From contig NZ_BNEA01000015.1 in NCBI RefSeq assembly GCF_016860525.1, forward strand, positions 4,323,501 to 4,387,500: a stretch of DNA of 64,000 nucleotides. Reading direction: 5' to 3'. The position numbers and the translations under genes are program-made. Under the pieces are notes generated by a model. It was not told where the DNA came from, did no database searches, and saw nothing but the letters and a program-made list of their open reading frames with translations. Source of the stretch: Streptomyces rubradiris. GTDB taxonomy: Bacteria > Actinomycetota > Actinomycetes > Streptomycetales > Streptomycetaceae. Below, one piece after another: positions 20,441 through 48,568 of the stretch; position 1 is the first letter of the stretch; every line of letters begins with the position of its first letter.

Positions 20441-20513
20441 GGGCCCTTAGCTCAATTGGCAGAGCAGTGGACTTTTAATCCATTGGTTGTGGGTTCGAGT
20501 CCCACAGGGCCTA
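20441..20513 (+). tRNA. tRNA-Lys(TTT), integration target
   Basis: 73-nt cloverleaf: acceptor GGGCCCT / AGGGCCT with one G-T pair, anticodon loop CTTTTAA reads TTT, T-arm TGTGG-TTCGAGT-CCACA, discriminator A; CCA is encoded at 20514-20516. Its 3' half from 20469 is repeated exactly at 34204-34249, marking it as the attachment site of the 13.7-kb island to its right. Confidence 0.97.
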
Positions 20514-20514
20514 C
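20469..20514 (+). repeat. attL: Left attachment repeat (within tRNA-Lys)
   Basis: 46-bp sequence from the anticodon stem to the first C of CCA, identical to 34204-34249. The tRNA stays intact at this end. Confidence 0.92.
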
Positions 20515-20955
20515 CAGCGGCGGGGGAGGGGAACACCCTCTGACCTGCTACGCAGCGTCCAGGTCGGCTTCGGTCGGCTCGGGCGCTGCGGCGTTTTCGG
20601 GACTCTGCGTGAGCGATGCGTGAGCGGATGTTCGATCAGAGCCGCACGTTTGGTGGTGCTGACAAGATCCCTCGCGGGTTCGTCTGCGAGGCTTCGCAGC
20701 GACGCGGCGCCTCTCGCCCCCAGGGTTGCGGTAGCCGACAGACCGGCCGCAGCCGAAGCACACTAGCTCATCCGTCGTTTTCTCAGCCTGCAATGTCAGA
20801 GCAGCAGCCCACGCCCTCCCACTCGTCTGCCATGGCTGAAGGCAGTCGACTCAACACCAGACTTCAGTGGACCACTGCGTGCGGGACAGCCTGATCCCAC
20901 GCAGCTTTAGGCTTGGGCACGTGCACAACGCTTAAGCACGAGAGGGCTCCTGCTG
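20515..20955. other. Left end of the island, no supported gene
   Basis: About 440 bp without a convincing gene. Contains the 25-bp end repeat (20606-20630). A minus-strand open frame at 20548-20793 with a CFGC motif runs through that repeat and lacks homology I recognise, so I do not call it. Confidence 0.4.
20606..20630 (+). repeat. Island end repeat, left copy
   Basis: 25 bp containing two GCGTGAGCG units in tandem; identical and in the same orientation at 34072-34096. Its position just inside both attachment repeats suggests arm-type binding sites for the lost integrase or its accessory protein. Confidence 0.7.
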
Positions 20956-24035: not shown

Positions 24036-24330
24036 TCATGATGTGGCCTGATTATTTTCTGCGACCTTGCCAGGGCGGGCGCGTGGCACTAGTCGGACCG
24101 CTGCTTCAGCTGCTGCCTGGTCGACCTCAGGGAGCAAGCTCGTGTACGTGTCCGAGGTCAGCGTGATCGTGGAGTGGCGAAGCGTTTCCTTGATCGTGTG
24201 GAGGTCGCCGCCACCGCCATGGGTGAGGGTTGCCGACACGTGACGTATATCACGAAGGGTTATTGGCGGTAGGTCAGTGCGGGCCAGGATCTGCCGGAAG
24301 GTCTCCGACGCGGTCTCGGGGCGGAGCCAG
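24036..24330 (-). pseudogene. Tyrosine recombinase (integrase), C-terminal fragment
   Basis: Only about 98 residues of the catalytic domain remain: PPITLRDIRHVSATL with the family HxxR (IRHVSA), then IKETLRHSTITLTSDTY with the H/T and tyrosine nucleophile, ending in a Lys/Asn-rich tail. The first catalytic Arg and all N-terminal DNA-binding parts are missing. Reading stays open upstream but the sequence stops looking like an integrase near 24330, where it meets the head of the truncated lanB running the other way. Confidence 0.82.
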
Positions 24331-24348
24331 GCGCCCGACCGCGACCGC

Positions 24349-25929
24349 ATGACCGCCGCGTACGCCGCACTGCCGACATTGGCAGCCGGAGCGGTACGCG
24401 GACAGGTGTCCAGCCCGCCCCTGCGACTGCCGACCCGCAACGTCGGCCGTGCTCCGGCCGTCGTGCCGCACGTGCTCTCGATCGGCGAGCACAACCCGGA
24501 CGCCATCCTCGACCTGGACGACCTCGGCGTCATCGCCGACTCCCGACGCTTCTACCTGGTGTCACTGTCCACCGGCCGGCTGATCGAGCCGACGGTCATG
24601 AACGCGGTGGAACTCAGCAGCGCCACCCACCCACTGGTCCGCTTCGTCTGCGAACTGCACCGCTCCCACACCACCATCCTCACCCCCTTCGCCTGGGGCG
24701 CGGCGGGCCGGCTTCCGTTCCTGCCCGAGATCCGCGTCGGCCGCACCATCTTGTCCGCCGCCTGCTGGCGGCTGCGCGCACGCGACCTGCGCGAAGAAAG
24801 TGACGACGGACGGGACTGGCTGTTCCGCTTCACCGACTGGCGCATCCGCAACGGCGTTCCCCGCACCGTGTACGTCGGCGGCAACGACCAACAGCTCCGG
24901 CTGGACCTCGACACCCCCACCCACCAGCAGCTCCTGCGCATGGAACTGGAGCGCCACCCATCCGTGGTGCTGCAGGAAGCGCCGGACGAGTCCGCGTTCG
25001 GCTGGCTGGGCCGCGCCCACCAGGTCACCGCATCCTTCGCCTCCGACCAGGAGCCCTCCCCAGCCTCCGTCTGCCGTGCTTCGGTCGTCGTGAGCCGGTA
25101 CTCCGGTCGGCTGCCCGGTGCCACCGAGTGGGCGTACCTGAAGCTGTACTCCAACGCCGATCGGGCACCCGAGATCCTGATCGTGCATCTTCAGCGCCTT
25201 CTTGCCGACTGGGGAGACGAAGCTCCGGCATGGTGGTTCACCCGCTACGCCGACCCCGACAGCCACCTGCGACTACGGCTCCGCCTGCCAAACCAGCACG
25301 CCTTCGGCGACGCCGCAAAGCGCGTCGCCACATGGGCAACAGAGATGCGCGCCGAGGGCCTGCTACACCGCGTGCAGTGGGACACCGACGAGCCGGAGAC
25401 CGGACGCTACGGCACCGGCCCCGTCCTGGCAGCCGCCGAACGCTTCTTCGCCGCCGACTCCGCCGCCGCCGTCGCGCAGATGGCCCTTCCCCTCCCCGAC
25501 AGCCTGCGGCCTGCCCTCACCGCCGCCAGCTTCGTGGACATCTCCGACGCCTTCCTCGGCTCCCCAGCAGCCGGCCGGACCTGGCTGACGACGAACCTTC
25601 TGAAGAGCGACGGCGCCGCCGCCTCACGCGACGTACTCGCCGAAGCTATCCGCCTTACCAGCCCAGGCCGTGACTACGCCGCCTTGCTGGCCCTGCCCGA
25701 TGGCGACGACGCCGCCCTGTCCTGGACCCTGCGCCGAGACGCCCTGACCGCGTACCGCCAGTCCCTCAACGCGATCGGCGCCGACCCGGCCGATGTGCTG
25801 CCGTCCTTCCTGCACATGCACCACAACCGCACCGCCGGCATCGACCCCGACGGCGAAGCCACCTGCCGCCGCCTCGCCCGCGCTGCCGCCCTGTCCTGGA
25901 CCGCCCGTACCCAGGGAGCACTGCGGTGA
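24349..25929 (+). pseudogene. Class I lanthipeptide dehydratase LanB, 5'-truncated
   Basis: Encodes the C-terminal 526 or so residues of a LanB: the end of the glutamylation domain (YAALPTLAAGAVRGQV, RLPTRNVGRAPAVVPHVLSIGEH) followed by the SpaB-C/glutamate-elimination domain (VSRYSGRLPGATEWAYLKLYS, WWFTRYADPDSHLRLRLR). Full LanBs are about 1000 residues, so the front half is gone. The frame is open further back to 24277 but residues before about 24349 belong to the reverse strand of the integrase fragment. The stop overlaps the lanC start. Probably inactive as a dehydratase. Confidence 0.85.
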
Positions 25930-26993
25930 CCACCGCCCCGCCCGTTCCCGCCACCGACCTCGCCACCCGGCAGTCCCTCGCGCACGGCCCCCTCGGCCCC
26001 CTGCTCGACGGAGACCGCGCGAGCCTGTTCCTCGGCGCCCCCGCGATGGCGTACGTCCTGCACCTGGCCGCCGCCGACAGCGAGCGCTACGCCGAAGCCC
26101 TGAACACCCTCGACCACGTCGTGGCTACGCACACCCGCCGTCGGCTGGCAGCCGCCCACGCCCGCATCGACCAAGGCCGCTACGCCAGCTTCGCCGAGTA
26201 CGACCTGTTCCGGGGTCTTACCGGGCTCGGCACCCTGCTGCTGCGTCGCCGACCGGACAGCGAAGACCTGAAGGCCATCCTGGAGTATCTGGTGCGACTC
26301 ACCGAACCTGTGGCCGGGCCCATCGGGCAGCCGCGGCTCGGCTGGTGGGTCGGGCACGCCCCCGCCAACCACAAAGCGGCAACGCCTGGCGGCCATGCCA
26401 ACGTCGGCCTCGCCCACGGGATCACCGGCCCACTCGCCCTGCTTGCCTTGGCCAAGCGCCGCGGTGTCACCGTGGATGGCCACGACACCGCCATGGTCCG
26501 CATCTGCCGCTGGCTGGACCGCATCCGCCACAGTGACCACCGCGGGACTCGCTGGCCGCGCTGGATCACCGAGACCGGCCCCGCACCCCTGCAACCTGCC
26601 GCACCGTCCTGGTGCTACGGCACCCCCGGACTGGCCCGTGCACAACAGCTCGCCGGGCTCGTCCTGGCCGACGCGGACCGCCAGCGCATGGCCGAACGCG
26701 CCCTTCTGTACTGCCTGGCCGACTCACACCAGGTCGACCAGCTCGTCACCCGTGGCCTGTGCCACGGAGCCGGCGGACTCCTGCGCACCGTCCAACGCGT
26801 CGCCGAGGACGCCCAGACCCCCACCGCGTTCACCGACCGGCTCCCCGAACTCCGCGACCGTTTCCTCGCCCTTCCCGCTCCGGAAGCGCCCGGCTTTCTC
26901 GAAGGAGCGGCCGGAGCGACCCTGGCCTTCCAGAGCGCCGAACCGGGCTCCGGGCCCGCCACCGACTGGGACGCCTGCCTGCTCCTGTGCTGA
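25926..26993 (+). CDS. Lanthionine cyclase-like protein LanC
   Basis: 355 residues, alpha-toroid LanC family. Zinc ligands are intact: C230 in WCYGTPG, and C279-H280 in LCHGAGG. The repeated helical motif NVGLAHGITGPLALLALA is also present. The reaction is Michael addition of Cys thiols to dehydroamino acids in a precursor peptide. The ATG overlaps the lanB remnant stop by 4 nt, keeping the ancestral operon order. Without a full LanB or a visible precursor peptide it probably has no native substrate here. Confidence 0.88.
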   Translation: MTTAPPVPATDLATRQSLAHGPLGPLLDGDRASLFLGAPAMAYVLHLAAADSERYAEALNTLDHVVATHTRRRLAAAHARIDQGRYASFAEYDLFRGLTGLGTLLLRRRPDSEDLKAILEYLVRLTEPVAGPIGQPRLGWWVGHAPANHKAATPGGHANVGLAHGITGPLALLALAKRRGVTVDGHDTAMVRICRWLDRIRHSDHRGTRWPRWITETGPAPLQPAAPSWCYGTPGLARAQQLAGLVLADADRQRMAERALLYCLADSHQVDQLVTRGLCHGAGGLLRTVQRVAEDAQTPTAFTDRLPELRDRFLALPAPEAPGFLEGAAGATLAFQSAEPGSGPATDWDACLLLC

Positions 26994-27005
26994 AGGGACG
27001 ACGAC

Positions 27006-27962
27006 GTGAACCCTGCGGATCCCATCACACTGGAGGACGCCATCCTGTGCGTCCTCACCGGAACACCCGTCGAACAGGCCGCCACCAAGGCGCGCACGTC
27101 TCCGGCCCGACTGGCCGACGCGGCCGAGCGCTACCGCGCCGCCGGCCGGGCCACACTCGACGCTCGGCCCGACAGCTGGCACCAGGTGAACATGGAGTTC
27201 GCCGACTACCCCACCGCGGAACGCGCGTTCCGCGCCTACGTCCTGCCGGCCCTGCGTACAGGACCGGTCGGGGCATGGTGGTTCGTGCGCAAGTACCCCT
27301 GCTGGCGACTGCGCGTCCGTCCCGGTCCGGACGCCCAGAGGGAGGACGCCGTTGAGCACCTCACCGAAGCCCTCGCCAGCACCCGGGCTTGTGGTGTGGC
27401 CGAGCGATGGTGGCCCTCCCGATACGAACCTGAAACCATCGCCTTCGGCGGCCCTCACGGCATGGTGCTCGCCCACACCCTGTTTCACACCGACAGCACC
27501 GGCGTCCTCGCCTACTACCAGCACGCCACCGACGGCACCAGCGGGCTCCTGGGCGCCAAAGAGACCTCCCTGCTCGTCACCAGCTTGTTCCTGCGCGCCG
27601 CTGGGCTGGAATGGGGCGAACAGGGAGACGTATGGGGGCAGATCGAGGTCAGACGGCCCTTGCCCGACGACGTGTCCCCCGACCAGGTCAGCGGCATGGT
27701 GGACCCATTGCGGCGGCTCCTGACGGTGGACGCCGGCCCCCTGCTCACGCACGGTCCCCTGACGCCCCTGCGGACCTGGATCACCGGCATGGAGCGCAGC
27801 GGCTGCACCCTCGCAGATGCCGCACGCGCGGGCAACTTCCAACTCGGCCTGCGCGGCATCCTGGCCCGCCACATCCTCTTCCACTGGAACCGCATGGGCT
27901 TAACCACCCGCCAACAGGCCATCTGGGCACGCGCCGCACGGGAGGCAACCCTCGGCCGCTGA
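27006..27962 (+). CDS. Thiopeptide-type bacteriocin biosynthesis (SpaB-C domain) protein
   Basis: 318 residues from a GTG, 12 nt after lanC, GGGACGACGAC upstream. Stand-alone elimination-type domain: WHQVNMEFADYPTAERAFRAYVLP, WWFVRKYPCWRLRVRP and the C-terminal HILFHWNRMGL. A second SpaB-C protein beside LanB and LanC is the arrangement of FxLD-type lanthipeptide clusters in Streptomyces, which I infer as the origin of this remnant. Confidence 0.82.
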   Translation: MNPADPITLEDAILCVLTGTPVEQAATKARTSPARLADAAERYRAAGRATLDARPDSWHQVNMEFADYPTAERAFRAYVLPALRTGPVGAWWFVRKYPCWRLRVRPGPDAQREDAVEHLTEALASTRACGVAERWWPSRYEPETIAFGGPHGMVLAHTLFHTDSTGVLAYYQHATDGTSGLLGAKETSLLVTSLFLRAAGLEWGEQGDVWGQIEVRRPLPDDVSPDQVSGMVDPLRRLLTVDAGPLLTHGPLTPLRTWITGMERSGCTLADAARAGNFQLGLRGILARHILFHWNRMGLTTRQQAIWARAAREATLGR

Positions 27963-28392
27963 TGCGTTATTGCGCACAGGCCAGGACGATGAACCTTTCA
28001 GTTCGGTGCGTGGTATCTCGCTGAGTGCCACCCTTGACAGCCTCCGGCTGTCCTTCTTCCTTGAAGGGCTGATCCTCGAACTGGAACGCCAGGTTTTGCA
28101 TGGCACCAAGGTGCATGAGGAGCAGGCGGCCTCTCGTTCTTGGTTTCAGGGCATAGCGTCGACGCCGACCGGAGTTCGATGAGACCGGAACATTGCGAGG
28201 CAGACGGTGGCGAACCGGCTTCGGCAAGGACTTGGTGTGGTGGTGGAGGAAGTCCTTGGACTTGGGCTTGCAGTGAGGACGCCCGCACCGCATGGGTAAT
28301 GGCACGACTGGCGCGGCATCCCGAGGAGCACGTGTACGCGGTGCGGCACTTGGACAGCGAGGAGAGCGATGGCTGATCAAGGCGAGTCAGAG
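27963..28392. other. Gene-free stretch after the lanthipeptide remnant
   Basis: About 430 bp. Short open frames exist on both strands (for example 27970-28182 plus, TTG start) but have no ribosome site, family resemblance or codon bias. No FxLD-like precursor peptide could be found here or upstream of the lanB fragment. Confidence 0.4.
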
Positions 28393-28427
28393 AAAGGGGT
28401 GCTGCCTCATCGAGGCAGCACCCCTTT
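28393..28427 (-). terminator. Terminator of the 5S rRNA gene
   Basis: Perfect 16-bp stem AAAGGGGTGCTGCCTC (28393-28408) with 28412-28427 and a 3-nt loop, 11 nt beyond the 5S 3' end on the minus strand. Strong and symmetric, so it could stop transcription from both directions. Confidence 0.92.
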
Positions 28428-28438
28428 AAAAAGCTTCC

Positions 28439-28555
28439 CGGCGGCGACCTACTCTCCCACGAGGTCCCCCTCGCAGTACCATCGGCGCAATCAGGCTTAG
28501 CTTCCGGGTTCGGAATGTAACCGGGCGTTTCCCTGATGCTATAACCACCGAAAAC
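28439..28555 (-). rRNA. Orphan 5S rRNA
   Basis: 117-nt 5S rRNA: conserved core CCCGGTTACATTCCGAACCC, GGAAGCTAAGCC, GCGCCGATGGTACTGC, and GTGGGAGAGTAGG are all present. Helix I pairs fully (CGGTGGT with the terminal CGCCGCCG). Helix II uses GCATCAGG / CCTGATTGC and helix IV GCGAGG / CCTCGT, both fully compensated, so the fold is intact though it differs from the usual Streptomyces 5S as I remember it. No 16S or 23S sequence lies within the island. It sits 157 nt downstream of the restriction gene on the same strand. Confidence 0.95.
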
Positions 28556-28712
28556 TGTGCGGCATAGCGTTCCCGCCAGCGCCTTCGTGGAGATGATACA
28601 CGGTTCACCGAGCCGCGCGTCGGGAGGCTACGGGTGGTGCCCGTCTCCGTATGGCCCGGTGTAGCGCGACGGCTGGTCCCTATGGCGTTACGGACCTCAC
28701 CACGGACGGCTA

Positions 28713-29816
28713 TCAGGCTTCGCCCGCGCCCGGCATCACCTCGTACCAGGCCAGTTCGTGGAGCGGCTCCGCGGCAAACCAAGCCCACGTGCCGGAGGCG
28801 AGGTCCTTGAGGCGTCGCCTCGCCGCATCAGAATTGCGTGACTCGAACGCTGTGAGGAATGAGCAACGGCCTTCCGCAATATTCTGTTTCGCGGCCCATT
28901 TAAGGAGCGCTGCCCGCCTAGCCGCCGTGACGACCCCGTCTGAAGCGGCAACCTCAATGATCCAAAACTGGACCGGATCTGCGCCGATATCGGCCATGAT
29001 GACGTCAGGGAGAACATTCTTGACATCAATTGTGATACCGAGGCCCTGCAAGGCTATCTCCTCGCCGAGATGAACCTTGTCTCCCGGCTCAGAGATGGCA
29101 AGGACGACGGGCTTCTGCATCCGAGCGTCGGCCCAAGTTTCCACGACACCTTTGACGATCAGGGAAGCCGTGCCCGGTTCGAGCGTGCGAGTAGCCCCTC
29201 CGCTGTTGGGAAGAAGCACAGTGACGGCATGTTCGGCGGCCTCAGCCTTCAGCGCGAATGCCGCCTTCAACCTGGCTCCCGCATCCAAGTGCTTGTCGCG
29301 CCAAGCGTTCGCCGCCTTCTCGAAGTCCTCGTCGGACAGGTCTGGATCAAAGAGGTCGGCGAAGTGGTCGAGAAGCGCCCAGCTGGGCTGGCTGCTCGCA
29401 GTCGGCAGGCCGGCGCGCTTGCGGATGGCGGCGTGAGAGCGCCACTCCCTGAAGGTCTCGTCTCGCAGCGTTTCCCGTGAGTTGTCCCTGTAGGACGGTT
29501 GAAATGGCTCGTTCCACGTCTGCTCGTGGAGGGCGGCTACGTGCTTGTTGCCCTTCGCCGCGGCCGTCCGCCAGGCTATGCGGTCGGCGTCCTCAGAACG
29601 AGCCAAGGCGCCCTTGGACATCCACAGCACGGTCGTTGGGCGTGCCCACTGAACGGCGTCCGTTGGGTCATCAGCGCTGCAAACGGCGTCGACGTAGATC
29701 AGAGCCGACACGGCCATCGCAGCGAGCGGCGAGGAGAACACCGGGTCGAACGCAGCCCTCGGGAAGACCACTTGAAGTCGCCTCTCGGCTTCCTCTGGAC
29801 TGATGAGCTTCCTCAA
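28713..29816 (-). CDS. BsuBI/PstI-type restriction endonuclease
   Basis: Type II restriction enzyme of 367 residues. The C-terminal domain matches the BsuBI/PstI family: LPDVIMADIGADPVQFWIIEVAASDG (here in two halves, near residues 258-285) and GRCSFLTAFESRNSDAARRRLKDLASGTWAWFAAEP in segments. The start is TTG at 29816, two bases after the methylase stop, with AGGAG about 8 nt upstream, so expression follows the methylase. Members cut CTGCAG; that specificity here is inferred from the family. Confidence 0.88.
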   Translation of the reverse strand: MRKLISPEEAERRLQVVFPRAAFDPVFSSPLAAMAVSALIYVDAVCSADDPTDAVQWARPTTVLWMSKGALARSEDADRIAWRTAAAKGNKHVAALHEQTWNEPFQPSYRDNSRETLRDETFREWRSHAAIRKRAGLPTASSQPSWALLDHFADLFDPDLSDEDFEKAANAWRDKHLDAGARLKAAFALKAEAAEHAVTVLLPNSGGATRTLEPGTASLIVKGVVETWADARMQKPVVLAISEPGDKVHLGEEIALQGLGITIDVKNVLPDVIMADIGADPVQFWIIEVAASDGVVTAARRAALLKWAAKQNIAEGRCSFLTAFESRNSDAARRRLKDLASGTWAWFAAEPLHELAWYEVMPGAGEA

Positions 29817-29818
29817 CT

Positions 29819-31582
29819 TCAGGCTCCTGTGGGTCGGTAGGCGGCGGCGACCGCTGCTTCGAGTGCATCTCCCTCAAGGTCATTCCACTTCCGCACTATC
29901 TCGCGGTGCGGCATGGGGATGGACTCAAGCTCGTAGGCGCTGAGCGCAACCGAGCCGGAGATGCAGCGGACAACCTTGTCCATCGTCTTGGTGGCAAGCA
30001 AGCGAGTCATGGCATCAGGCGTCAGCACGGAATCAGCACCGGCAGAGCACCGCAGCACGTTTACGTGGTTCTCGACAGTGACTCGGCCGTCGCGGGCGTC
30101 CAGATCTGCCTGACTGAGATGTGCGGCAACGAGCCGACGTGATTGTTCCGGGGCCGTGGTGCGCTGGACCAGCACGGCAGGGCTATCTAGCACCATCACC
30201 TTGAGGTCAGAGGCGGCGGTGAGGGCCAGGAACCGCATGGCATCCCGCGCAGGATCACGATGTAGGACTCCGCCGTCTAGGTCCGCAGCCCAAATCACAT
30301 GCGAACGATTGGGACCGCCGGACGGGTACAGGTCGCTGCTGCGTCGATTCCACACGAGCGGGCCTGTGGAGGCGCGCCAGCCCAAGGACCCCAGAGACTC
30401 TTCCATGGCTGATGCTGCGGCAGCGATGGGCGCATCGTCGGAACGGCGTGGAAGAACCCAAGGTTGCTCTGTCCTCTGGGTCTTAACACTGGCGATGGTG
30501 GTCTCGGAGCTGCCAAGACTGCTGATCCTGGTCTTCCTGCGCTTCCGCCTCTCGAACGTAGCCAGGCATGTTTCTTGAAGCACAGATGTGAACACGCCGC
30601 TGCGGTCCTCCACGAACGCCACAGCGCTCATGGCCGCCTCTTGGCTTATGTGATCGCGCAGTTTGCTGAAGTAGCGTCCGCTGGTGAAGCTGGTCGGAAC
30701 CAGCGCGGCTAGGACACCCTCACCGTCCAGGGCATCGATAGCCCTAGCCATGAAGAGCCCGTACAGGTTTGCGTGTCCGTATAGGACGTGGGCATAGCGC
30801 TCGCGCTCAGCAGGAGAAAGCCGCACGCGACCATATGGCGGGTTCATCACCACAACGCGCACAGCGCCTGCAGGCATGTCCAGGCCGTCACCAACGTGGG
30901 CGAGTGCGGGTAGTGGCTTGCGAACAGATGCAGGGACTCGGGCAAGAGTCGGCAACATCTCCGCTGCTAGCACCACGTTGGCAACCCACACTGCAGCTTC
31001 GTCGGCGTCCACCCCGCGAAGGAGGTTGGGCAGGCCGGCCAACGTGAGCGCAGGATCGACATCGAAAGCTGCCCGCAGGTGTTCCCGCAAGGCTGGCAGT
31101 AGAAGGGCGCCGCCGCCGCAGGCGGGGTCAAGCACTAGACCCGTAAGCATTCGGTTGCTGGGGGGCAGGCCAAGGCTGTCACGAGCCATTCCCCACAAAT
31201 GGACGGCGAGCTCGCGTGGCGTGTAATGGCGACCATGGCGCGCCCGCGTTGCTGCCGACAGGGCTTCCACGTACGCCGCACCCACCTGCTCTGGCCCGAG
31301 CGTCGACAGGTCGGCTGGCTCCACGGAGCCATCCATGATCGCAGCGGGCGGACGCGCCTGGAGGGCCTGTTCGATATCCAGCCACGCCCCGTCGAGCCCA
31401 GCTGCGGAAGCACGCGACTTCCACCATGCTGCAAGGCCGGCGAGCACTGCTGCAGCGCTGGAAGTCAGCCCTGCTGGCCGGTCCGTCACCTCGTCTCGGG
31501 AACCTCGGGAACCCAAGGGCCGCGCCGTAGCGTTGCTCACCTTGGCTTCCGGCAGCGCTGCGGCAGCGAGCAGTTCCGGCAT
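29819..31582 (-). CDS. N6-adenine DNA methyltransferase of the PstI-like system
   Basis: 587 residues. SAM motif LDPACGGGALLLP at 151-163 (motif I), catalytic NPPYGRV at 247-253 (motif IV, N6-adenine type), and a C-terminal target-recognition region of about 250 residues. GRHYTPRELA at 118-127 is typical of gamma-class M.PstI/M.Eco57I-like enzymes. Transcribed first in the pair, protecting host DNA before the endonuclease is made. Start ATG 31582 with GAAGGAG upstream. Confidence 0.9.
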   Translation of the reverse strand: MPELLAAAALPEAKVSNATARPLGSRGSRDEVTDRPAGLTSSAAAVLAGLAAWWKSRASAAGLDGAWLDIEQALQARPPAAIMDGSVEPADLSTLGPEQVGAAYVEALSAATRARHGRHYTPRELAVHLWGMARDSLGLPPSNRMLTGLVLDPACGGGALLLPALREHLRAAFDVDPALTLAGLPNLLRGVDADEAAVWVANVVLAAEMLPTLARVPASVRKPLPALAHVGDGLDMPAGAVRVVVMNPPYGRVRLSPAERERYAHVLYGHANLYGLFMARAIDALDGEGVLAALVPTSFTSGRYFSKLRDHISQEAAMSAVAFVEDRSGVFTSVLQETCLATFERRKRRKTRISSLGSSETTIASVKTQRTEQPWVLPRRSDDAPIAAAASAMEESLGSLGWRASTGPLVWNRRSSDLYPSGGPNRSHVIWAADLDGGVLHRDPARDAMRFLALTAASDLKVMVLDSPAVLVQRTTAPEQSRRLVAAHLSQADLDARDGRVTVENHVNVLRCSAGADSVLTPDAMTRLLATKTMDKVVRCISGSVALSAYELESIPMPHREIVRKWNDLEGDALEAAVAAAYRPTGA

Positions 31583-32009
31583 GAAAGCGGTGCTCCTTCA
31601 GAGGTAGGGCTCGACGCAACAGTAGCGACCTGGAACAGGTGTGTCCGGGAAAGGCTTGTGCTACCAGTGCCAACTACAGGCAACCGAGACTACTGCGATG
31701 CGCCAGCGTTATGGCTCGGTTATGTCTAGTTCGATTGGGGACGGGTGGGGCCGGGAGCTGCGGTGGCCGGCGAGGCCAGCCGGCGCTGCTCACCTGTTGG
31801 GTTCATGGCCAGAGGTCTCCCTCTCACCGCTGTCCGTTAGCGGGTGGTGCATCCAGCGAGGTTCCGCACGTCAGCGGGTCAAAACCGGCCAACTGGTAGC
31901 CGGTTATGGCGCATAGCCAGCCGCTGGTCCTATGCAGACTTGCGGGTGGCTACGCTGCGTGCCTAGAAGATCTCGAAGAGTGGGCAGATCTGGACAAGAA
32001 GGAGGACGC
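31583..32009. other. Divergent promoter region, no gene supported
   Basis: 427 bp between the divergently transcribed methylase and the GHKL gene. Short open frames are present but without coding features. Ends in AAGGAGG (31999-32005) directly before the TTG start at 32010. Confidence 0.4.
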
Positions 32010-34034
32010 TTGAGCACTCATCTGCGCTTTGCACCGGAGATCCTGATTCGCCTGGGTGAGGAGCTCATCCCCCACCCAGATCTCGGCGTGATCGAGTTGG
32101 TGCGCAACGCATACGACGCGGATGCGACGAAGTGCATCGTCCAGCTGCACAATGCCAGTCAGCCGGGCGGGACCCTCGTTGTTGAGGACGACGGCGACGG
32201 TATGACCGTTGAGGACATCCGGGATGGGTTCCTACTCATCGGGAGGTCATCGAAGCTTGGTGCCCCGGACAGTCGATCCAACCGCCGACGGATTGGCGAG
32301 AAGGGCCTGGGGCGGTTGGCAGCCCTACGCCTTGGTCGCCGAGTCGAGGTGATCACGAGACCGCGTAGCGAGCCGGGCCTGGAGCACGTGCTTGTCATCG
32401 ACTGGTCTGACTACGAGTCGGTTACGTCGGTCGAAGATGTTGAGCTGGCAGTCTCCACCCGATCAACGTCAAAGCCTCCGGGTACCTCGTTGACCGTTCA
32501 CCGGCTAATGGAAGGGTTCGACAACGAACAGATGGAGCGGCTTGCACGCGCCATGCGGCTGCTGACCGGGTTTTTCAATGACGAAGACACGGGCTTCGCT
32601 GCCACGCTCATCGCTCCTCAGTTCGAGAGAATCTCGGAGGCGGTTAATCGGGGCTTCTTCGACGAGTACGAGTACAAACTCGAAGCCCACCTGGATGAGC
32701 AGGGATACGCCAGTACGATCCTGTACGACTGGAAAGGGAATGTGGTCACAAGGGGTGAGCATATTGATGTAGTGCCCGATCGCCGCAGAGGGCGTCTGCA
32801 GCCTCCTTTGCGATACCAGGCGCCACCAGCATCTTTCGAGCTGTGGATGTTCTTGCTCAGCAAGCGCGCCTTTGACCTCCGTGGATCAAAGCGACGGTAC
32901 GTTGAACTACGTCCTTGGCTAGCGGTGGTGGGTGGTGTCCACGTGTTCCACCGTGGGCTTCGCGTTCATCCGTATGGTGACCAAGGATCAGACTGGCTAG
33001 ACCTCAACCTTCACCGGTCGCGCAGTCCGGAGCTGCGACCCTCTACTAACACCAGCATTGGTCGGCTTTCGGTAGAGGATCCGGATGGGATGCTTCTCCC
33101 TAAGACGGATCGAATGGGGTTCCAGGAGAATGCTGCCTTCATTGAGCTAAGGCAGTTTGCCGCAAGTGCTACAGACTGGGCAGCGCGTGAACGGAAGAGG
33201 ATGCGAGATCGTGAGCAGCTAGCGGGTCTTGCTCCGACTCGTCGCGCCGATCAAAGTCTTGCTTACAGACAGAAGACGGAATCCGAGGAGACTTTAGAGG
33301 GCGGGTCTGCGGGGCTTGGGCCGCAGGATCAACCGCCGACGCCGGAGCCGCCTCTGCCCAAGCAGCGACAGAAGCTGGCGTTGCCGGCGGTGCTGCCTGA
33401 GCGTTTAGCCTATCGGGCACTCGCCACAGCCGGGATCTTGTCTGTCGCGTCCGTACGTGAGTCCGTCGCGGTTGGTGACGCCGGCAGTTTGGCTGCCGAC
33501 GGAGCAGCCGAGTGGGTTGCCCTCGGGGCACGGGCGGCGCATCCGGATAAGTTCCGGGTTGCGGCACGTGACCTCAATGAGGCTATCGGCGACGCGTTGG
33601 GCGCAGTGCGCGGCCAGCTGGAGCGTCACGGGGTCTCTCTCACGCTAGACCTCTGGGGGGAGCCGGTTCGGGTCGCCGCGGCCGCTTCGGATCTGGAAGC
33701 GATCGTTTTTAACCTCTCTCTGAACGCCGTCAAGTCGTTTGAGCGAGCTGGTGAGATGTTGGGTGGGCGCGCCGTGTTGGTGCGAACCCACGTTGATGGC
33801 GGGCAGGCAGTCGTCGACTTCTCGGACTCGGGTCCGGGTGTCGACGACGTTGACCTGGTTGAGATGTGGCGACCGGGCGTGGTCGGCCGGGCATCAGACA
33901 GCACTGGGCTTGGGCTGACGATCGTTCGGGACGCCGTCGCTGACATGCGTGGCACACGATCCGTGGATGCCCACGGAGAGCTGGGGGGCGCGACCTTTCG
34001 CATTCGACTGCCCTTGTGGCCCGACCAGGACTGA
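32010..34034 (+). CDS. Protein with two GHKL ATPase domains
   Basis: 674 residues from TTG 32010 (AAGGAGG 5 nt upstream; an in-frame ATG at 31932 has no ribosome site). The N-terminal Hsp90/MORC-like ATPase has E29/N33/D36 in ELVRNAYDAD, DDGDGM at 60-65 and the lid GEKGLGR at 96-102. A middle region (about 200-480) is unlike known kinases. The C-terminal histidine-kinase-type ATPase has FNLSLNAVKSF near 566, DSGPG near 605 and GLGLT near 633, but no clear phospho-acceptor His box or sensor. Probably a defence-type or DNA-topology ATPase; role inferred from neighbouring restriction genes. Confidence 0.75.
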   Translation: MSTHLRFAPEILIRLGEELIPHPDLGVIELVRNAYDADATKCIVQLHNASQPGGTLVVEDDGDGMTVEDIRDGFLLIGRSSKLGAPDSRSNRRRIGEKGLGRLAALRLGRRVEVITRPRSEPGLEHVLVIDWSDYESVTSVEDVELAVSTRSTSKPPGTSLTVHRLMEGFDNEQMERLARAMRLLTGFFNDEDTGFAATLIAPQFERISEAVNRGFFDEYEYKLEAHLDEQGYASTILYDWKGNVVTRGEHIDVVPDRRRGRLQPPLRYQAPPASFELWMFLLSKRAFDLRGSKRRYVELRPWLAVVGGVHVFHRGLRVHPYGDQGSDWLDLNLHRSRSPELRPSTNTSIGRLSVEDPDGMLLPKTDRMGFQENAAFIELRQFAASATDWAARERKRMRDREQLAGLAPTRRADQSLAYRQKTESEETLEGGSAGLGPQDQPPTPEPPLPKQRQKLALPAVLPERLAYRALATAGILSVASVRESVAVGDAGSLAADGAAEWVALGARAAHPDKFRVAARDLNEAIGDALGAVRGQLERHGVSLTLDLWGEPVRVAAAASDLEAIVFNLSLNAVKSFERAGEMLGGRAVLVRTHVDGGQAVVDFSDSGPGVDDVDLVEMWRPGVVGRASDSTGLGLTIVRDAVADMRGTRSVDAHGELGGATFRIRLPLWPDQD

Positions 34035-34071: not shown

Positions 34072-34096
34072 TGCGTGAGCGATGCGTGAGCGGATG
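34072..34096 (+). repeat. Island end repeat, right copy
   Basis: Identical to 20606-20630, two tandem GCGTGAGCG units, 107 nt inside the right attachment repeat. Shortly after both copies the sequence AGCCGCACG recurs. Confidence 0.7.
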
Positions 34097-34203: not shown

Positions 34204-34249
34204 GGACTTTTAATCCATTGGTTGTGGGTTCGAGTCCCACAGGGCCTAC
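34204..34249 (+). repeat. attR: Right attachment repeat (tRNA-Lys 3' half copy)
   Basis: Exact 46-bp copy of 20469-20514. The 5' half of a tRNA is absent in front of it, so it is not a functional tRNA gene. Confidence 0.93.
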
Positions 34250-40194: not shown

Positions 40195-40382
40195 CGCGGT
40201 CGTCCCAGCCGTCACAAGAGGCGGCTCCGTGCGCACGCGCCGAATCCCGCGAGGGAACCGGGGAACCACCACCTTGGGGTGAATCACGCGGATACCGTCG
40301 TGTACTCACGCGAGTCCACGACCGGTATACGCGCGTAGGAGACCTTCCTGCTCCGAACCCGTCAGCTAACCCGGTAGGCGGA
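40195..40382 (+). ncRNA. ydaO/yuaA cyclic di-AMP riboswitch
   Basis: Conserved ydaO blocks appear in order: CGCCGAATCCCGCGAGGG, GGGGAACCAC, TTGGGGTGAATCACGCGG, GTAGGAGACCTTCCTGCTCC, and the closing GAACCCGTCAGCTAACCC followed by GGTAGGCG. These define the c-di-AMP aptamer. It lies just before the M23 peptidase start; in Streptomyces this riboswitch class controls wall-lytic enzymes. Edges are approximate. Confidence 0.92.
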
Positions 40383-40404
40383 GGAAGGAAAGGAGTACGC
40401 CCGC

Positions 40405-47856: not shown

Positions 47857-48568
47857 GCGCCACCCCTCGACACAGACGGCTGCCGCGCTGGCATAACCGT
47901 GCGGCATTCGTAAACCCAGCGTAGTTCGCCGCATCCCAAGCGTTAAGGGGCAATGTTCCGGATGGCGGGATTGTGGTCGGTAGGCGGGCGCGGCCCTGTA
48001 CGCACCGTGCACGGGCTGTCGCGACGTGCCCCCGACCGTGTGGCCGTGCGCCCGCCCGTGCGCTCTTCTCCGGCCACCCGGCGGGCGATTCCATGGCCGT
48101 GCGTGGGTCGGCCCGCTGTACTGGATCCAGTGGGCTGGGGGACACCGCCGCCTTCATCCCCGCGGGTGGCGGACCGGTCCGGGAGGCGTCGTCCGTCTCC
48201 CGGACCGTGCGTATGGGTAAGCCGCCAGGCGCTCCGCAGTCCTGTACGGAGAGTGCTCGATTCCGGTGCGCCGTCACGGATTTGGCTGAAAATAATCACT
48301 CGATCGTGCGGTGGATTTCCTTCGTGACCATGCAACTTGAGGGCGTGAAAGGGGATTTGGGGGAGCGCATTGGGGGCGCGTTCGCGTCGTACCCGTTGAG
48401 CGCAGCCTCCGCCCCACCCGCCCGCCACCCGTCAACTCCCCTTCTCCGGCACCGCGTACATCCCTCGGTCGAAGGCGGCCACGCCGCACCTCCCCGGCCT
48501 GTTCTTCATGGCAGCATGGGGGCCGGTTCGTACGGTGCACTGGTGGTCCACAGCCTGTGGAGGCGTCG
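47857..48568. other. Large divergent intergenic region
   Basis: 712 bp with no supported gene. A comparatively AT-rich patch at about 48285-48350 (GCTGAAAATAATCACTCG) is plausible promoter DNA for the rightward gene, but no clear hexamer pair can be fixed. Several open frames cross the region without ribosome sites. Confidence 0.4.

Follow-up and report, generated by a model that had tools for sequence, protein, structure and literature searches.

The closest described counterparts of the locus analysed here lie among the GHKL ATPases, the restriction-modification (R-M) systems and the 5S rRNA genes of bacterial rrn operons. MORC and paraMORC ATPases, as presented in Iyer et al. 2008 (PMC2292703), combine an N-terminal GHKL domain with a position beside R-M genes, and the ATPase of our locus resembles them in both respects, with PF13589 at its N-terminus and R-M neighbours in all five loci of its close clade. 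In contrast to these ATPases it has a second, histidine-kinase-type domain, and no helicase is present among the scanned genes of its island. HATPase_c_3 together with a C-terminal HATPase_c, and a link to type II R-M, are likewise features of the HEF_HK/Response_reg_2 systems of Bellieny-Rabelo et al. 2021 (PMC8011034), however the ATPases scanned here (P0001, G078, G282) show no HEF_HK (PF19191) at Pfam E values up to 0.01, and the neighbouring gene at a related locus (L123) shows no match to Response_reg_2. The R-M genes of our locus are of the BsuBI/PstI/SdaI type, assigned on the restriction endonuclease (RE) domains and an adjacent adenine DNA methyltransferase (MT) gene, and differ from the described systems in being accompanied by a 5S gene and a double-GHKL ATPase. 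A single annotated 5S gene, with no 16S or 23S annotated in 6.1 kb, is also found among the phage genes of the Bacteroides phage LoVEphage (OY731433.1, L139:3004-3109), which is a phage rather than an ATPase and R-M module, belongs to an unrelated host group and shows 71.9% identity in its 5S. The word “rrna” returned no occurrence in PMC2292703 or PMC8011034, and a literature search covering few subscription journals gave, among the matches listed, no paper connecting a 5S gene with R-M, paraMORC ATPases or defence.

The locus lies in a 64,000-nucleotide stretch of the Streptomyces rubradiris genome (G000), referred to here as the window. An earlier note on this DNA had reported a complete 5S rRNA gene without 16S or 23S; the gene is real, with its limits at 28436-28552 rather than 28439-28555, a shift of 3 nt (Table 1). 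Its match to RF00001 is full length (model positions 1-120 of 120, E 1.6e-22) and scores 107.1 bits, far from the poor covariance score that had been named as a possible objection, against a gathering score of 38 and 106.7 bits for the other six 5S copies of the host. The lone gene is therefore on par with the host rrn copies in score, and resembles bacterial rrn 5S genes in fold and core, whilst differing from them in its lack of 16S and 23S, its own hairpin, its probable promoter, its mobility and its type of helix IV. Seven 5S matches are present in the genome (9.05 Mb, 22 contigs), of which the six rrn copies have one and the same 117-nt sequence and are each preceded by a 23S 3′ end. No 23S 3′ end lies upstream of the lone 5S, which is the sole rRNA of the window, with no 16S or 23S detected there at gathering scores. 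The lone copy differs from the six rrn copies at 14 of 117 positions, which disposes of the concern that it might be a duplication artefact identical to the host 5S.

Table 1. Coordinates of the lone 5S gene, its flanking signals and the associated island features in the window.
Feature	Position	Strand	Basis
Standalone 5S rRNA gene, 117 nt, variant helices II and IV	28436..28552	-	RF00001 covariance model
Perfect 16-bp hairpin, 3-nt loop, probable 5S terminator, without long T tract	28393..28427	-	Sequence and fold
5′ leader hairpin between candidate promoter and 5S	28561..28583	-	Predicted fold, weak
TGTATCAT, candidate -10 region of 5S promoter	28593..28600	-	Inferred, no scan match
BsuBI/PstI-family type II restriction endonuclease (RE)	28713..29816	-	PF06616 E 7.8e-24, PF17728 E 8e-10
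N6-adenine DNA methyltransferase (MT), Eco57I/N6_Mtase type, RE partner	29819..31582	-	PF07669 E 1.8e-10
Double-GHKL ATPase	32010..34034	+	HATPase_c_3 (PF13589) N-terminal, histidine-kinase-type HATPase_c C-terminal
C-terminal tyrosine integrase fragment	24036..24533	-	PF00589 E 4.8e-4, profile 95-168/172, below Pfam cut-off
attL-like repeat in tRNA-Lys 3′ part (tRNA 20441-20516)	20469..20514	+	Exact repeat
attR-like 46-bp copy of tRNA-Lys 3′ part, right border	34204..34249	+	Exact repeat

We put at slightly better than even the chance that the lone 5S is a real, independently transcribed accessory gene of a mobile module of Streptomycetaceae, made up of a paraMORC-like double-GHKL ATPase and a BsuBI/PstI-type R-M pair. 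This reading starts from features observed in the sequences themselves, namely the gene and its hairpin within the island, the recurrence of the association, the common variant of helix IV and an evolution as slow as that of rrn copies; the role of the RNA, whether as ribosomal 5S, as a decoy or as an RNA partner of the ATPase, is what we infer from them.

The paired changes in helices II and IV noticed earlier are borne out by four both-sided exchanges between the lone and host 5S, at 16-63 and 18-61 in helix II and at 81-92 and 82-91 in helix IV, all of them Watson-Crick. Three of these four pairs are unpaired in the Rfam structure line, and the pairs were therefore assigned by hand. In the Rfam structure the window's lone 5S has one non-standard pair (25-53), which is common to the host 5S, and the related lone genes of three other genomes (G077, G078 and G780) show U opposite U in the terminal pair and, close to loop C, two pairs of non-standard type, to which G077 adds one more non-standard pair. 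The covariance scores of these relatives are 92.0, 98.5 and 97.1 bits, giving a range of 92.0-107.1 bits across the four loci, and the lone genes differ from the host 5S in both the terminal pairs and helix IV.

The description of the surroundings as a mobile island holds, with direct repeats of the 3′ part of tRNA-Lys at both borders: the island spans 13.7 kb at tRNA-Lys between two exact 46-bp repeats. The integrase fragment is the only integrase-like match, with no intact integrase among the scanned island ORFs. A second exact direct repeat, of 25 nt (20606-20630 and 34072-34096), lies just inside both borders and consists of two near-copies of TGCGTGAGCG; these repeats are possibly integrase arm sites. 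PADLOC reports the R-M pair as REase_II and MTase_II (MTase_II E 2.4e-113). The TTG start of the ATPase is inferred from its homologues, with the longest ORF beginning at 31932. Positions 24277-27962 contain what is apparently a partial lanthipeptide cluster, with a piece of a dehydratase, a gene resembling LanC and, apart from these, a Lant_dehydr_C gene. Three further predicted island proteins have no Pfam match. An 89-bp stretch at 28277-28365 is 86.5% identical to DNA downstream of the RE gene of G183 (L070:9343-9431), where no 5S was found, and is apparently the end of a gene common to the window and G183. Outside the island, the window contains a c-di-AMP riboswitch before an M23 peptidase gene (40228-40395) and the Streptomyces RNA Scr4115 (48101-48209).

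The association of a lone 5S with such genes recurs. A search with the RE (E up to 1e-10) gave matches in 7 of 392 genomes of the genus, the window's own included, and led to G077, in which a lone 5S adjoins a divergent RE (28% identity) and an ATPase gene like that of the window. Searches with the ATPase gave 13 matches in the 392 genus genomes at E up to 1e-30, and 5, of which 3 were new, in 389 family genomes at the stricter E of up to 1e-150, for a total of 16 ATPase loci examined, 5 in a close clade and 11 more distant. The close clade, defined by at least 66% full-length identity to the window's protein and by the tree, comprises G000, G077, G078, G780 and G815; G782 falls outside it at 60% identity over the full length, though 70% over the matched part. 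Lone 5S genes are present at four of the five close-clade loci, including that of G780, which belongs to a genus other than the window's; G815 has none. By contrast, none was found at the 11 more distant loci, ten of which were read by motif search and cmscan over the matched segment with 1.5-kb flanks, margins that may stop short of the end of the ATPase gene for partial matches. One of these ten, G282, was scanned over 19 kb as well, and the eleventh locus, G782, was scanned over 19 kb. Whole-genome 5S lists for eight of the ten genomes place no 5S beside the ATPase gene, and two of these eight show no 5S. Nor was a lone 5S found at the five RE loci in genomes without an ATPase match (G313, G315, G186, G183 and G079), of which G079 has RE fragments only and G313 a contig that ends near its R-M genes.

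A BsuBI/PstI-type R-M pair adjoins the ATPase gene in all five close-clade loci. The gene order is MT-RE-5S-ATPase in G077, G078 and G780; G815 and G000 have the order RE-MT-ATPase, with the 5S of G000 lying beyond the RE. In the window the 5S thus adjoins the RE, and the ATPase gene, which the earlier note did not link to the 5S, is 3.5 kb away. The R-M pair between them is of a different kind, as the RE and MT of G000 share only 25-28% identity with their counterparts in G077 and G078. Of 49 5S loci read, 27 have 23S upstream, 19 lie at contig ends and are unclassable, and 3 are lone; the lone 5S of G078 was read separately, outside this set, and 30 of the 46 5S rows in the whole-genome lists were given loci. 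The association rests on four lone-5S loci, and the 392 genus genomes were searched for 5S genes with specific patterns. The presence of close relatives beside similar ATPase and R-M genes in three other genomes argues for a selected part of a probable defence module, and not a stray copy. Two ATPase relatives without 5S (L123:9600-13484 and L122:4405-8323) belong to a three-gene unit with partners of 234-240 aa and 356-358 aa; in L123 the first partner has no Pfam match and the second matches metallo-beta-lactamase/ComEC-like models, with the L122 genes alike by eye, and this unit is possibly a separate defence unit.

All four lone 5S genes have the same helix IV, CGAGG/CCUCG. This helix is absent from the other 26 5S types in our collection, whose 85 entries include some copies more than once, from 20 relatives of G078 examined by pattern search, and from 33 loci obtained in an open-helix-IV pattern scan of 84,980 species, a pattern that would itself miss the three related lone genes. 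In a GTR tree the four lie on one side of a branch (support 86/86); removal of the helix IV columns loses this clade without leading to its rejection (p-AU 0.17), and a K2P tree does not recover it. A common origin of the four genes is therefore likely from the sequence comparison, and rests largely on helix IV. The helix II variant of the window occurs in only this genome among 392 of the genus; four other genomes match in a pattern search, all of them at exactly 3 mismatches and with a different helix II. In 394 genomes of the class, one other lies within 2 mismatches, with three copies and a different loop C, GGTCCCATT. Loop C of the lone 5S, GGTTACATT, is that of 25 of the 26 other types. 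The gene thus looks like a streptomycete 5S lineage, with its donor not found among the genomes searched. The different actinobacterial source that had been suggested is, in the sense of a distant source, not supported. A donor outside Streptomycetaceae was considered and set aside, as pattern searches in the 392 genus genomes and the 394 class genomes and two exact-pattern contig scans found no donor. Neither a relative of the ATPase nor an exact match to the pattern for helix IV or to the core of the streptomycete 5S was found in IMG/VR, and among plasmids and phages the best 5S match (89.6%) lies in an unannotated region of a Streptomyces plasmid, with the others more distant.

The perfect 16-bp stem 3′ of the gene, which had been called a terminator, is confirmed as a hairpin, with a 55-nt piece around it folding at -32.2 kcal/mol and a 14-bp hairpin at the corresponding site in the three relatives; as a terminator it is less secure, as a long T tract is lacking and a strict terminator scan reported nothing at 28393-28427. 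A sigma-70 consensus scan of the window found no promoter for the lone 5S, in agreement with the earlier observation that no strong promoter is visible. At each of the four loci the 120 nt preceding the 5S contain a single TGTAT, which begins 48-52 nt from the gene and may mark a promoter. Leader folds are predicted in all four loci from differing sequences, with z scores of -0.89 for the window and -2.07, -0.93 and -1.59 for the relatives. A common promoter sought by upstream alignment is weakly supported for G078 and G780, where 2 and 6 of 300 shuffles respectively score as high as the similarity to the window, and is not supported for G077, which shows no similarity (206 of 300 shuffles score as high). 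The 5S of the window does lie just past the RE gene on the same strand, as the earlier note described, at a measured 160 nt from the RE gene end (28713) rather than 157 nt. Transcription by read-through of the R-M operon, proposed on this basis, is unlikely as a general mode, with TGTAT upstream in four of four loci and the wrong orientation in three: in G077, G078 and G780 the 5S and the RE converge and the 5S and the adjacent ATPase gene diverge, which excludes read-through there. The window's own 5S may still be made in this way.

The lone 5S genes of G077, G078 and G780 differ from one another at 3, 4 and 3 of 117 positions in pairwise comparison, whereas the MT, RE and ATPase genes of the same three loci differ by 15-27% at the DNA level. 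Between G077 and G078 the divergence is 26% for the MT, 24% for the RE and 26% for the ATPase, against 3/117 for the lone 5S. The probability of 3 or fewer differences in 117 independent sites is 6e-12 at 26% divergence and 9e-7 at 17%. The rrn 5S genes of G077 and G078 differ at 3 or 4 of 116 positions, so the lone 5S changes no faster than ribosomal 5S. Among the three relatives the 150 nt upstream align only partially, at about 72% where aligned for two pairs, and the 100 nt downstream, which include the hairpin and the RE end, are 82-89% identical. Within genomes, the lone and rrn 5S differ at 14-19 positions in the three comparable genomes (15-19 in G077 and G078), indicating that rrn copies are not correcting the lone gene; G780 was left out of this comparison, as its assembly shows the lone copy only.

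These data bear on the idea, raised in the earlier note, that the 5S is a passenger, a functionless copy taken once from an rrn operon. Standalone 5S genes do exist elsewhere, mobile islands take up unusual genes, the G815 locus lacks a lone 5S, and the 100 nt downstream are fairly well conserved too. Set against the divergence of the surrounding module genes, however, the near-constancy of the lone 5S disfavours a relic, as do its compensatory changes, the hairpin and TGTAT retained at all four loci and the absence of correction by rrn copies, and we regard this explanation as improbable. No support was found for a recombination target, which had also been suggested; a swap-in 5S, the third suggestion, may still apply. 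The main rival reading, rather unlikely in our judgement though less so than a passenger, is that the RNA is not chiefly ribosomal and instead regulates the double-GHKL ATPase as its partner. As a mimic of 5S it would hold the ATPase inactive or report an attack on the ribosome, and would be freed or altered on infection. This would account for a 5S that stays with the ATPase clade even where the R-M pair differs, as in G000, and that in three loci lies beside the ATPase gene in divergent orientation. Evolution like that of rrn 5S with the ribosomal core kept is harder to reconcile with such a role, as is G815, which has the ATPase without the 5S; moreover, the close-clade ATPases (674-688 aa) are no longer than their nearest relatives without 5S (704 and 712 aa), which does not suggest an added RNA-binding domain.

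The lone 5S might instead be a restriction-proof spare, which has lost CTGCAG by paired changes and is thus uncuttable by the module's own enzyme, for which CTGCAG is a candidate specificity. CTGCAG is the site of BsuBI and PstI. It is present in the rrn 5S of G000 (in helix IV), G077 and G078, and absent from all four lone copies. The 50.2 kb of chromosome flanking the island contain few such sites (3 against 9.6-16.1 expected). CTGCAG is not scarce within the island (8 against 4.7-7.8 expected), nor depleted from the five modules together (7 against 7.5 expected), and an rrn stretch of G000 contains two more CTGCAG sites in the 16S region and one upstream of it. Additionally, 11 of the 26 other 5S types also have no CTGCAG. 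The site of SdaI is CCTGCAGG. No relative of the G078 enzyme with a solved structure was found other than SdaI, and CCTGCAGG was not found in two rrn stretches, one of them partly masked. The restriction-site idea, though attractive, is therefore weak, and we consider it very improbable.

If the lone 5S is, as we favour, an independently transcribed accessory gene of the module, its transcription would start at a promoter of its own, some 50 nt upstream, and the RNA would then be processed, yielding a mature 5S competent to enter 50S subunits. Most likely, the module would in this way supply the ribosome pool with its own 5S, in which helix IV is altered and the terminal pair weaker. The least certain step is the last, in which the variant would escape recognition by phage factors acting at 5S, or would serve as a reserve when rrn genes are damaged. 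A precedent for 5S as a phage contact point is PhiKZ014 (PMC10914614, in Pseudomonas numbering). That a dedicated variant 5S serves the module as a functional component in anti-phage defence or self-protection, blunting 5S-acting factors from within ribosomes or as a decoy or ATPase ligand, is a tentative proposal, plausible though on balance doubtful.

If the favoured reading is correct, a core ribosomal RNA, equipped with signals of its own and a variant form of helix IV, would have become a selected accessory gene of a mobile ATPase and R-M module. Further cases may be sought by a simple rule, that of a 5S without 23S beside a double-GHKL ATPase. Such genes would link the composition of the ribosome to phage defence, and would offer a natural handle on what 5S rRNA does.
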